Shown: in pieces, positions 29,742 through 33,114 of the stretch
How the letters are laid out: each line of letters opens with the position of its first letter
How positions within the stretch are numbered: position 1 is the stretch's first letter
Origin: Acidobacteriota bacterium
GTDB lineage: Bacteria > Acidobacteriota > Terriglobia > Terriglobales > Acidobacteriaceae
Direction of reading: 5' to 3'
DNA length: 37,654 nt
Assembly: GCA_013289795.1 (NCBI GenBank)
Contig: JABCZH010000022.1
Location: 1 to 37,654, forward strand
Notes under the pieces: model-generated
Database searches by the model: none
Seen by the model: the letters and a program-made list of their open reading frames with translations, nothing else
What the model was told of the DNA's origin: nothing
Translations under genes and position numbers: made by a program

Positions 29742-30236
29742 CTATGCCAAACCTTTAATCTCAAGCCCAGCCAGCAACAACGCTCCCTCAAACAAAAAGC
29801 CGGTTTGCATCCTGCGCGCGTTCGCTGCAGAGTGGAATTTATAGTTCCCTCCCTTGATCACCGTTGGTACGGAAAGCAGGCAATTGTCACCCATGCCCGG
29901 AATCTTTATTTTGAAATTTCCCGCAACCATGTTGCAGACTTCGCCCAGCGCATCCCAAGTCTCAATCCCAGATTTTTCAACTTCCGTGCCAAGCATCTTC
30001 GACGCCATGCGAATCGCCGACAAAGTGGCGCATTGGATGGTCACAAGGCCGCACATCTTCCCGGCTAGCCCCACCATCGTGGTGACATCGAGTCCCGTAT
30101 CGCTCAACGGCTGAGGCGCCATCTCAAGCTGGCTTCCCAGCATCAGATCGAAGACTTCGCGCGAGGCCAGTTCTAACAACCCGATCCAGTTCTCGGTAGC
30201 TTCCTGCACTGCCACATCGGTGTTCTGCGGCGTCAT
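29742..30236 (-). CDS. cheX: CheX-like CheY-phosphate phosphatase
   Basis: A 164-residue protein of the CheC/CheX/FliY phosphatase fold. The catalytic Glu and Asn appear in WDALGEVCNMVAGN (about 95-108), the E-x-x-N signature that positions water for hydrolysis of phospho-CheY. Two glycine-bearing strands and the C-terminal LLLAGLEIKGL match CheX. GGGGA precedes the ATG by five to six bases. It has its own perfect sigma-28 promoter and stands between the fliN operon and flgF. No cheY or cheA gene lies in the window, so its partner is elsewhere. Confidence 0.88.
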   Translation of the reverse strand: MTPQNTDVAVQEATENWIGLLELASREVFDLMLGSQLEMAPQPLSDTGLDVTTMVGLAGKMCGLVTIQCATLSAIRMASKMLGTEVEKSGIETWDALGEVCNMVAGNFKIKIPGMGDNCLLSVPTVIKGGNYKFHSAANARRMQTGFLFEGALLLAGLEIKGLA

Positions 30237-30269: not shown

Positions 30270-30296
30270 TTATCGGCAAGACTGGGCGGGACTTTA
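30270..30296 (-). promoter_or_regulatory. Perfect sigma-28 promoter for cheX
   Basis: Minus strand: TAAA (30296-30293), 15 spacer bases, GCCGATAA (30277-30270), an exact match to the FliA consensus in both boxes. The TAA stop of the upstream MshEN-like gene (30296-30294) lies within the -35 box. Transcription would begin near 30262, about 25 bases before cheX. Confidence 0.9.
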
Positions 30297-31211
30297 GACT
30301 GCCGCTGCCTCGAAGGGACGGAGCTCCACCTCGGTGGTTATATGCGCGGGGACGCGCAAAATCAGATTGACCGCGTCTTGCCTGAAACGTTCCAGCCGCA
30401 CCCACAGGTGGTCTCCACACCGTGCCAGCCGGACCTCCTCGGCCCGAAAGTTCGCGGTGTAGTTGCCGATGATGCGCCCGCACTCCACGCCATTTTGCAC
30501 TCCGTCAAAGACCACATCGCTCGCCGTGTGGCGTTGGGCCAGCGCCTGCAAACCCTTTTGCAGCGCGGCCGGAGACACGACGCATGGCTGGGTATGGCAC
30601 CCCAGCATCTGCTCCACTGCGTAAAGCATCGTGTAGTCGATCCCGTCACTGAAGGCGACGAGAAGTGTCGATGTAGATTTCACAAACTCCACCGGAATCA
30701 TCTGAAAGCCTTCGAGTAAAAGCATCGGAATCCCGGTGAATCGTGCCTCACCCAGCGTCTCCACTCCGGTTCGCAATACGGGACATGACCACTGGCGGGC
30801 CAAAGCAGCCGTCACTTGCGGCTCGGTGACGAAGCCCAGTTGCTGCAGCCACTCGCCGATTTTTCTGCTCCCGGCAGCACGCTGCGCCTCGAGCGTGCTT
30901 TTTAGTTGCGCAGCCGTGAGTTGCTGCCGCGACAGAAGTAGCAATCCCAAAGGAACCCGATGCGACTGCACCAGTTCCAGGCGGGGAACGGAACGCTCTC
31001 GGTGCAGAATTTCTACGAGAACGTGCTCTAAACATTCCGACTGGCAATACCAACTTCCCTGCATCCGCGTGCCCCGCTTCCGTCGCCGCATGCGGTTCCA
31101 GCGGCTATGAGCGTGCATGCAGCCGGTGTAGGCGCATCGTGGCGCAAGTTTTTCCCATAAAGCACCGCCAGCCGCACTCCAGGATGCGATGAGCCTGAAA
31201 AGCAAACTCAT
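30294..31211 (-). CDS. Cys4 plus MshEN (GspE N-terminal-like) domain protein
   Basis: A 305-residue protein I cannot assign to a named flagellar family. Near the N-terminus are C26-x4-C31 and C56-x3-C60, separated by a very basic segment (RRRKRGTR), suggesting a zinc site. Residues about 87-215 resemble an MshEN/T2SSE_N domain: VPLGLLLLSRQQLTAAQLKS and KIGEWLQQLGFVTEPQ, then the IPMLLLEGFQMIPVEF half. MshEN domains in other proteins bind cyclic di-GMP through two RLGxxL-type motifs; here the motif Arg is Pro in the first and Lys in the second. The last 90 residues are unassigned. No ATPase domain follows. It overlaps fliN in ATGA, so it is probably made with the switch complex. A cyclic di-GMP effect on motility is inference. 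Confidence 0.75.
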   Translation of the reverse strand: MSLLFRLIASWSAAGGALWEKLAPRCAYTGCMHAHSRWNRMRRRKRGTRMQGSWYCQSECLEHVLVEILHRERSVPRLELVQSHRVPLGLLLLSRQQLTAAQLKSTLEAQRAAGSRKIGEWLQQLGFVTEPQVTAALARQWSCPVLRTGVETLGEARFTGIPMLLLEGFQMIPVEFVKSTSTLLVAFSDGIDYTMLYAVEQMLGCHTQPCVVSPAALQKGLQALAQRHTASDVVFDGVQNGVECGRIIGNYTANFRAEEVRLARCGDHLWVRLERFRQDAVNLILRVPAHITTEVELRPFEAAAV

Positions 31212-32113
31212 GATGGAGTCCTGCCAAGTCCGAGTGGACTTACATCCGTCACCCGCAAACCGTAGTCTCCGTTGATCACCACAACTTCTCCGCGCGCCAC
31301 CAGCTTGCCATCGAGCAACAGGTCGACCGGCTCCGCCACTTTGCGGTCGAGTTCAATCACCACGCCGGGGTTGAGATCGAGTATTTCCCGCAGCAGCATT
31401 TGTCTTGAGCCGAAGCGCAGGGTCAGGCCTAACTGAACATCCATCAACAGATCTAAAGCGCCGCTGCCTGCTGCGGGGTCGGGTGCGGGAATGGATGAAG
31501 AGGATGGAGAGGATGGAGCCGATGGCGCGGCGGATGGCGCAGAAGGTGCAGCCGCGGCTTTGGCGGCTTCCGCCTTAGCAGCGTCCGCTTTCTCCCGCAA
31601 CTCCGCCACCAGCGCGGCACTCAAGCCAAACTCCAGCATCATCCCGGCTGGACCTTCTTCTCCCGCATGGAGCCAAAACGATGTCGCCGGCTGCCATGAG
31701 GGAGCGGCAGGAGCAAGTTCCACGCGCAGTTGAATTTCTCCCCAGCGCGCCTTTGCGCTGGTCGCAACCACCCCGGCAACCTGGCGCAGCAGTTCGACCG
31801 CCGCCTCGCGATGATCAGCCGTCAGTTCCACTTCGGGCGCGTCCGGCTCGCTCATCAAGTCCTGAGCCAGGCGAAGCACGGTAGGCGGCGCCAGACGCAA
31901 GCTCATCTCCCCGCGCAGGCCGCCGGTGGATGTAACCACCGCCCACAAATCGCTTTCCGCTGCCGGCGGAAGGTCGGCGGGGGCAGACGGGTTGACCGCG
32001 CTCGGAACCGCCGAGCCTTTGATTTGCCCCACCACCTGGGAAAAGCTTTCCGACCACACCTGGATGTATTCGGCAGGCGCGGGTTCGAGGGCAGGAGCGG
32101 CGGCTTCCGTCAT
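31208..32113 (-). CDS. fliN: Flagellar switch protein FliN with long N-terminal domain
   Basis: FliN forms the lower part of the C ring and transmits the CheY signal. The C-terminal SpoA domain (about 218-298: LMDVQLGLTLRFGSRQMLLREIL, then KLVARGEVVVINGDYGLRVTDV) is standard. Before it lie about 215 residues, compared with 40-60 in usual FliN: a globular region (about 55-170, with GEMSLRLAPPTVLRLAQDLM and EAAVELLRQVAGVVATSA, which faintly resembles the CheC/CheX fold with Gln at the Asn position) and an Ala/Pro/Ser linker (about 175-215). The ATG at 32113 overlaps the fliM stop in ATGA. FliY of Gram-positives is similarly built; the comparison is tentative. Confidence 0.9.
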   Translation of the reverse strand: MTEAAAPALEPAPAEYIQVWSESFSQVVGQIKGSAVPSAVNPSAPADLPPAAESDLWAVVTSTGGLRGEMSLRLAPPTVLRLAQDLMSEPDAPEVELTADHREAAVELLRQVAGVVATSAKARWGEIQLRVELAPAAPSWQPATSFWLHAGEEGPAGMMLEFGLSAALVAELREKADAAKAEAAKAAAAPSAPSAAPSAPSSPSSSSIPAPDPAAGSGALDLLMDVQLGLTLRFGSRQMLLREILDLNPGVVIELDRKVAEPVDLLLDGKLVARGEVVVINGDYGLRVTDVSPLGLGRTPS

Positions 32114-33114
32114 GGTTTCGTCCCACCCTGTAGCTTCATCTCGTCCGCATCCGTCTCCTCCGTCGCGACCGGCTGAAGCACCTGCGCGGCGCGGGTGGGG
32201 CCGCAACGCGAGGGTGTTGCGGTAAACATCTCAACCCCTGCGACCAAGACCGAGGCCGGTTTGCTCACGGCGCGCCGCAGTGGAAGCAGATATCCCGGAA
32301 CCAGCTCGGTCAATTCGCCCACGGTCGCAGTCAAGCCGTCGACGCCTAATTCCAGGGGAAAAGGACAATCCAGCACGCAGCGCTTGACCCGCTCCCGCCA
32401 GCAGCCGCGGTGGCGCGGCAGGTGTTCGCTCGATTCCGCGGAGATCTTGCGCAGCAGGGCGTGGGAAACCGATACCGGAACCGCCAGATTCAATCCTCCC
32501 CGCACCTCAAGCATGGTGATCTCAAAACTCAGCGACAGAGTCTTCTCGCCCAACGGCATCAGGCGCTGTGCATCCGCCAGTCCTACCCGCTTCTCGAAGT
32601 CCACCTGAAGATTCACTGCCTGCCAGGCCGCTCCCAGGTCGCGGCACACGATGCGGGCCACGCTTTCGACAATTTGCTCTTCGATTTCGGTGGGCTCGCG
32701 GGTGACTGCGAAAGCTTTACCTTCACCGCCCAGCAGCAGATCGACAATCGGCAAAGCAACTTTCAGGTCCAATTGCAGCGCGCCAATTACGCCCATTGGT
32801 TCGAGCCTGCAGGATGCCAGATAGGTGGTCTCCGGAACCCGCTCCAGAAATTCGCGGTAGGTCAGGTGCTCGGCGGAAACCAGGGTCGCGGCGAACACCA
32901 CTCGCAAATACGCGCCAAGGGAGTGGGTCAGGCTACGGGCAAAGCCTTCGTGCAGCGCGGTAATGGCTTGCAGTTGCTCACGCCGGATCTGGCCCGCCCG
33001 CCGCACATCCCAGGGCTCGACTTTGGGTTCCTTGGCTTTGCCCGCGTCGGCGCCGCCGCTGCGTGCCGCCCGTACCATGGCATCGATCTGTTCCTGGTTA
33101 AGTTCGTTCTGCAC
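32110..33114 (-). CDS. fliM: Flagellar switch protein FliM
   Basis: A 334-residue C-ring protein that binds phospho-CheY. The N-terminal peptide NQEQIDAMVRAARSG (about residues 6-20) corresponds to the CheY-binding SQEEIDALL motif. The central CheC-like domain follows (about 45-235: FARSLTHSLGAYLRVVF, RLEPMGVIGALQLDLKVALPIVDLLLGG in pieces) and the SpoA domain is at about 245-315. The C-terminus is acidic and short. It lies about 40 bases after fliA on the same strand. Confidence 0.95.
   Translation of the reverse strand: MQNELNQEQIDAMVRAARSGGADAGKAKEPKVEPWDVRRAGQIRREQLQAITALHEGFARSLTHSLGAYLRVVFAATLVSAEHLTYREFLERVPETTYLASCRLEPMGVIGALQLDLKVALPIVDLLLGGEGKAFAVTREPTEIEEQIVESVARIVCRDLGAAWQAVNLQVDFEKRVGLADAQRLMPLGEKTLSLSFEITMLEVRGGLNLAVPVSVSHALLRKISAESSEHLPRHRGCWRERVKRCVLDCPFPLELGVDGLTATVGELTELVPGYLLPLRRAVSKPASVLVAGVEMFTATPSRCGPTRAAQVLQPVATEETDADEMKLQGGTKP

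Follow-up and report, generated by a model that had tools for sequence, protein, structure and literature searches.

The window, as the whole stretch of DNA analyzed here is called, comprises 37,654 nucleotides of an Acidobacteriota genome. Directly behind its fliM and fliN-type genes lies a gene whose product combines four N-terminal cysteines with an MshEN-like domain (hereafter Cys4-MshEN). Domains of this kind are frequent sensors of the bacterial signal cyclic di-GMP (c-di-GMP), and the locus raises the question of whether this protein belongs to the flagellum and, if so, whether it could carry a c-di-GMP signal to the motor. A first, sequence-only reading had named it a candidate flagellar regulator. 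The features of the locus are listed below, each with the evidence for it.

30294..31211, minus strand: Cys4-MshEN gene, ATG start, 305 aa, stop included (ORF list and conserved family of 103 distinct sequences)
31032..31136, minus strand: Cys4 head, residues 26-60, consisting of C-x4-C, a 24-residue basic stretch, and C-x3-C (cysteine conservation)
30528..30953, minus strand: MshEN-like domain, about residues 87-228 (NF053729, structure matches by sequence and by profile)
30882..30953, minus strand: half-motif I, residues 87-110, with Pro87 in place of the first Arg and Gln110 retained as the final Gln (alignment and motif check)
30792..30863, minus strand: half-motif II, residues 117-140, with Lys117 in place of the first Arg and Gln140 retained as the final Gln, followed by Trp141 (alignment and motif check)
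30297..30527, minus strand: C-terminal domain, residues 229-305, with W270-x-R272, matching no recognized family (W270/R272 conservation)
31208..32113, minus strand: upstream fliN-type gene, long FliN, 301 aa from ATG (Pfam FliMN_C, 76.6 bits)
32110..33114, minus strand: fliM (Pfam FliM, 107.3 bits)
29742..30236, minus strand: cheX-like gene, next downstream (Pfam CheX, 67.9 bits)

The minus-strand frame at 30294-31211 and its overlap with fliN, both claimed at the outset, are present in the sequence, where the start codon ATG of Cys4-MshEN (31211-31209) and the stop codon TGA of the fliN-type gene (31210-31208) form a common ATGA. The cysteine pattern described earlier was also found, as C26-x4-C31 and C56-x3-C60 with a basic stretch between the two pairs; the C-terminal part has a length of 77 residues. 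The upstream gene had been called fliN, which holds insofar as its product is FliN-type, but it is 301 aa long and not a classical short FliN. A weak CheX-like match (Pfam, E=0.015) was also observed in this long FliN-type protein. The names fliA, fliM, fliN, cheX, fliP, fliR, flhB, flhA, flgA, flgH, flgI, and the FlgE/F/G rod type were taken from Pfam or NCBIfam, and that of cheY from a Pfam receiver domain only, while flgJ, flgM, and the distinction of flgF from flgG were assigned by reading. Genes in other loci were named by similarity to the proteins of this genome, and six frames labeled flgF and three labeled fliN were confirmed against Pfam. PADLOC gave no match.

The genome searches for relatives covered the window's own order and phylum. 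Full-length copies were defined as the 92 places with E up to 2.2e-16 in the order search, and these are distributed over 88 of the 150 genomes searched. The other listed places (E from 1.5e-11 up), where the match is limited to the MshEN part, were taken to be PilB-type; nearly all of them are frames of 572-645 aa (exceptions, 137 and 752 aa). A family profile scan that covered 247 Acidobacteriota genomes gave full-length relatives in at least 11 genomes outside the order, the copy in one of these being truncated where its contig ends. A single-protein contig scan returned one relative (L033, 51%), in Candidatus Sulfotelmatobacter (Terriglobales, Acidobacteriota), which follows fliM-fliN. The set of 103 distinct sequences used below consists of 92 from the order and 11 from outside it; sequences identical over their last 150 residues entered it once, frames showing a Walker A pattern were dropped, and one row that is truncated at a contig end was kept (L064; L064 and L075 are one copy). 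Since the ORF is conserved across all of these sequences, a chance origin is excluded.

The earlier assignment of an MshEN domain was checked against profiles and solved structures. For the window protein alone, Pfam MshEN (PF05157) scored 18.4 bits, under its cut-off of 23.1, a weak score of the kind that had been named beforehand as refuting the idea, but the other profile tests were clear; the NCBIfam model NF053729 ('c-di-GMP_motif, MshE-related') scored 39.2 and just passed its cut-off of 38. The same model matched all 32 family members scanned (E up to 0.01), and the Pfam cut-off was passed by 8 of 10 members from outside the order, with scores of up to 51.4 bits. Single-sequence comparison with solved structures gave the PilB N-terminal domain (6olj, E=1e-10) and MshE (1.1e-6). 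With a 32-member family profile the values were 3e-22 for PilB (6olj) and 1.2e-14 for MshE (5htl), and the best match was Thermus PilF (6f8l, 3.6e-39 over four stretches). By these comparisons, the domain at about residues 87-228 is an MshEN homologue, and its half-motifs mark it as one with a modified ligand site. The ATPase that had been described as lacking is indeed absent, as no Pfam ATPase domain was matched in the window protein, the sequence ends at residue 305, and the NCBIfam PilB model matches it over its N-terminal 144 positions only. A structure model, for which the window protein and one relative (L033) served as inputs, reached a mean pLDDT of 39 and was too poor for use.

Coupling to fliN and a flagellar role had likewise been claimed, and the survey of fliM-fliN operons in relatives bore this out. 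In the order, every one of the 92 full-length copies has a FliN domain upstream of it on its own strand, which is the opposite of an absence from that neighborhood; 30-385 bp (median, 171.5) separate the end of the FliN-domain match from the beginning of the Cys4-MshEN match. FliMN_C was found in at least 97 of the 150 genomes of the order, among the matches listed; the gene is present in 88 of these 97 genomes versus none of the 53 without FliMN_C. Fisher's exact test gave P 1.5e-31 for this co-occurrence, a naive yardstick because the genomes are treated as independent though they are not. The start codon nearest the fliN stop (ATG or GTG) lay within -30 to +60 of that stop in 88 of 98 loci and formed an exact ATGA in 8, a procedure that is biased towards overlap because the nearest start was the one taken. 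An order fliM-MshEN-fliN appeared in one of 49 loci and was rejected as most likely an artefact of ordering overlapping stop-to-stop frames (such overlaps were seen in L014, L015, and L022), all 92 copies being downstream of FliN.

Nine genomes of the order have FliMN_C without the gene. A profile search that included them (within 20 genomes) found no full-length copy in any of the nine: G005, G017, and G021 gave PilB-type matches, G143 gave matches that were short and weak, and the other five gave none. In three gene-less genomes (G024, G060, and G148), fliN is directly followed by flgF, and in G040 (L094) an HDOD protein lies between fliN and flgF, in the place of Cys4-MshEN; no flgF was seen beside fliN in G066 and G005. 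The existence of these nine genomes points to an accessory or regulatory gene rather than to a structural part of the flagellum. In 49 loci the next recognized gene after Cys4-MshEN was cheY and/or cheX in 18 and flgF in 9, with none recognized in the rest. The fixed place behind fliN, together with the variable next gene, points to an association with the C-ring rather than with the rod.

Beyond the order, FliMN_C was found in at least 79 of the 247 phylum genomes. These include 22 of the window's own taxonomic family, 21 of which have the gene, and 57 others, at least 11 of which have it. No full-length copy was present among the matches listed for 46 of these 57 genomes, which may include genomes with injectisome proteins, and Cys4-MshEN is therefore not a general flagellar part. 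The 11 outside copies are all part of flagellar clusters: fliN precedes ten of them on the same strand, and the truncated copy has flgF after it. In several of them one or two genes, for an HDOD protein or a small membrane-type protein, stand between fliN and Cys4-MshEN. Eight gene-less FliMN_C genomes outside the order were opened, and one (L087) has an HDOD gene in the slot.

Three side observations were made in these loci. An HDOD-domain protein occupies the fliN-flgF slot of other Acidobacteriota (L065, L067, L068, L087, and L094), in some of them beside Cys4-MshEN. In lineages outside the order, Cys4-MshEN is preceded by a small protein whose N-terminus is hydrophobic and whose matches to DUF6115/DUF2802 are weak and below cut-off (L065:7654-8148, L067:6541-7017, L068:2543-2971, and L071:5791-6261). 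FliMN_C matches in frames of 443-530 aa (G237, G298, G261, G189, G212, and G201) look unlike FliM or FliN and may be injectisome SctQ.

In the window's own genome the family is matched three times: besides the window gene itself, contig C13 carries a 40% paralogue, and on contig C7 a 630-aa PilB-type frame is matched in its MshEN part. The paralogue lies in a second flagellar cluster with the order fliP-fliR-flhB-flhA-fliA-fliM-fliN-[Cys4-MshEN]-cheY-cheX-flgF-flgG-flgA-flgH-flgI-flgJ, so that a copy is present in each of the two flagellar clusters seen in this genome. The two clusters (the window and L034, G000:C13:28000-46000) have the same order around fliM-fliN, the second with cheY between Cys4-MshEN and cheX. 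The second cluster has another FliMN_C match immediately ahead of fliP, in a frame of 163 aa (G000:C13:28181-28372); taken with the long fliN, it suggests that there may be two FliN types per system.

A maximum-likelihood tree was computed from the 103 sequences and 11 PilB N-termini. PilB falls on one side of a fully supported branch (100/100), and with PilB as outgroup Cys4-MshEN forms one clade in which the outside-order members branch first, although the tree itself is unrooted and has some long branches. The outside-order members are not one group (2 changes). The window copy groups with the relative L033 (100/94) and then with G087 and G092 (100/99), and the second copy of its genome joins outside this group (98/91), an arrangement that does not look like the result of a recent duplication.

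How such a protein could act was considered from the observed domain homology, the conservation of the four cysteines, the linkage to fliN, the co-occurrence with FliM/FliN, and the clean absence from some genomes with flagellar genes. The reading preferred here, which in our judgment stands an even chance of being right, is that Cys4-MshEN is a flagellum-dedicated accessory of the C-ring, made with FliM and the long FliN, whose MshEN domain would serve as a cyclic-dinucleotide sensor acting on the motor. Translational coupling would probably account for this joint production, and the Cys4 head and C-terminal W-x-R domain would dock the protein on the switch complex. The ligand of the MshEN domain would be a cyclic dinucleotide, most probably c-di-GMP bound with altered affinity, and its sensing would bias or brake the motor, in the way that YcgR acts via its PilZ domain. 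The genome has 19 GGDEF matches (18 over cut-off, some being pieces of one frame) and 29 PilZ matches, on account of which c-di-GMP is probably present in this organism.

The predicted ligand site speaks to both sides of this proposal. At the first position of motif I, the order-level alignment has Pro in 89 of 92 sequences and Ser in three, and the 11 outside sequences have Arg (5), Leu (2), Lys (2), Thr (1), and one gap, one row being cut by the contig end. The first position of motif II is Arg in 70 and Lys in 16 of the 92 (86/92 together). The half-motif Gly is kept in 92/92 (motif I) and 89/92 (motif II) order-level sequences, and the final Gln in 81/92 and 92/92, respectively, and in 11/11 outside sequences for both half-motifs. 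The half-motif length is also kept, with one 23-residue exception among the 92 and one truncated row among the 11, as are most Leu positions. Arg85, present in 90/92, was aligned in our own placement of the register to MshE Arg7, a residue of the basic patch (PMC5013675). The relaxed motif published for MshEN domains (PMC5013675) was matched at motif I by 63, at motif II by 5, and at both by 1 of the 92 order-level sequences; the corresponding numbers among the 11 outside sequences, which are closer to the consensus at motif II, are 1, 4, and 0. The window protein departs from this motif (PMC5013675) at positions 10 and 11 of motif I and position 7 of motif II, and these deviations, too, weigh against nucleotide binding.

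Pro and Lys in place of the motif Arg residues had been taken as an argument against ordinary binding. The residues are there (P87 and K117), but the relaxed search motif used by the MshEN authors permits R, K, P, or N at the first position (PMC5013675), and hence the Arg replacement alone does not exclude binding; imperfect MshEN motifs may bind according to the same source (PMC5013675). Conversely, the MshEN domain of Xcc GspE (2D27) is reported as non-binding (PMC5013675 and PMC12002112, cited jointly for this domain and GSPII-A of PilF). In GSPII-A the lack of binding is attributed to motif and structural changes combined, and restoring the consensus alone did not restore binding (PMC12002112), so that sequence decides binding in neither direction. 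It is possible that Cys4-MshEN responds to c-di-GMP, and it is perhaps a degenerate sensor of that ligand.

The close rival to sensing, a substantial possibility though short of an even chance, is that the MshEN fold no longer binds a nucleotide and serves as a protein-protein module that helps to assemble, stabilize, or place the C-ring. The change of the motif I Arg to Pro in 89/92 and the single order-level sequence with the relaxed motif in both halves agree with such an adaptor, as do the two domains reported as non-binding. So does the strong conservation elsewhere, at Trp141 and Pro162 (both 92/92 in the order), W270, R272, and the cysteines. Docking to inner-membrane partners is likewise the task of the N-terminal domains of secretion and pilus ATPases. 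For PilF, docking to PilM via the N-terminal domain has been described (PMC12002112). Set against the adaptor are the half-motif length, the Gly, most Leu positions, and the final Gln, all retained over large distances, the outside-order members nearer the consensus at motif II, and the NF053729 matches in 32/32 members scanned.

The regions flanking the MshEN domain are highly conserved. The four head cysteines are kept in 88, 90, 92, and 92 of the 92 order-level sequences (C1 to C4), the 10 outside sequences that are not truncated have Cys in all four columns, and these cysteines are among the most conserved residues of the family. Residues 1-60 had been proposed for comparison with zinc ribbons, and the result was negative: the head of the window protein matched no Pfam family at E up to 1, and no zinc-binding Pfam family was found in the 32 members scanned (E up to 0.1). 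The best PDB stretch over the head with the family profile was YNG1 (E=0.76). The head is likely a small zinc-binding module. In the C-terminal domain, W270 is present in 92/92 and R272 in 91/92 order-level sequences, and both in 11/11 outside. A remnant of the PilB/GspE N2 domain, suggested on inspection by eye, was considered for this region and is not supported: the full profile path reaches PilB N2 in order, but with the C-terminal part alone, 8 of 100 column-shuffled PilB alignments scored as high (103 members), which is no better than chance.

The conserved cysteines would also suit a protein in which the head senses zinc or thiol state and the MshEN domain is a passive scaffold. We consider this improbable, as no Pfam zinc family was matched and the 51% relative L033 has an altered first Cys pair, which is unlike a sensor site; moreover, conserved Cys4 heads are often structural zinc sites. 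That the gene merely rides in the operon without a flagellar function is scarcely credible, for although some genomes with flagellar genes do without it, it is linked to fliN across lineages, is present in 0 of 53 order genomes without FliMN_C, and has a copy in each of two clusters of one genome.

Cys4-MshEN is thus probably an undescribed accessory regulator of the flagellum. The preferred reading of a motor-acting sensor has a more far-reaching form, which we offer tentatively and regard as rather doubtful: made with FliM/FliN, the protein would be a PilZ-independent motor receptor of Acidobacteriota, kin to pilus and secretion ATPases, that binds a cyclic dinucleotide at a modified MshEN site and sets C-ring output directly, with a separate copy for each of the two flagellar systems of one cell. 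A limited search of the open-licence PMC literature found no description of a fliN-linked MshEN protein, which is weak evidence of absence. To our knowledge, where c-di-GMP controls the motor directly, it does so mainly by way of PilZ proteins. Such control is described for proteins such as YcgR (PMC9303241). If sensing is true, this fliN-linked family, which occurs in several lineages of Acidobacteriota, would open a second c-di-GMP route to the motor, would tie a signaling domain of pili and secretion to the flagellum, and would give a point of entry to motility control in this phylum of soil bacteria. Even without nucleotide binding, it would be a conserved accessory of the flagellar switch genes for which that search found no description.

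Compared with known systems, Cys4-MshEN shares with the MshE/PilB/GspE-type ATPases (PF05157 and NF053729) a homologous domain with tandem 24-residue half-motifs in which the Gly and final Gln are kept. It differs from them in having a Cys4 head and no ATPase domain, in its site in flagellar clusters, and, for order-level members, in the Pro that replaces the motif I Arg. NfrB (the NCBIfam name), PA3740, FrgA, and Bd2402 (PMC5013675) have in common with it an MshEN domain outside a secretion or pilus ATPase, and PA3740 and FrgA have been tied to swarming (PMC5013675); these proteins were compared by description only, and none is described in that account as fliN-linked or as having a Cys4 head (PMC5013675). 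With the flagellar brakes YcgR/FlgZ (PMC9303241), which are PilZ proteins, the common point is the proposed nucleotide-responsive action on the motor, and the difference is the sensor domain, the window protein being without a PilZ match (Pfam, E up to 1). The tetrameric PilZ protein of the Campylobacter motor (PMC12943098), which unlike Cys4-MshEN has a PilZ fold and comes from a different phylum, is an earlier example of a receptor-type domain that works with the motor although it lacks the binding motifs.
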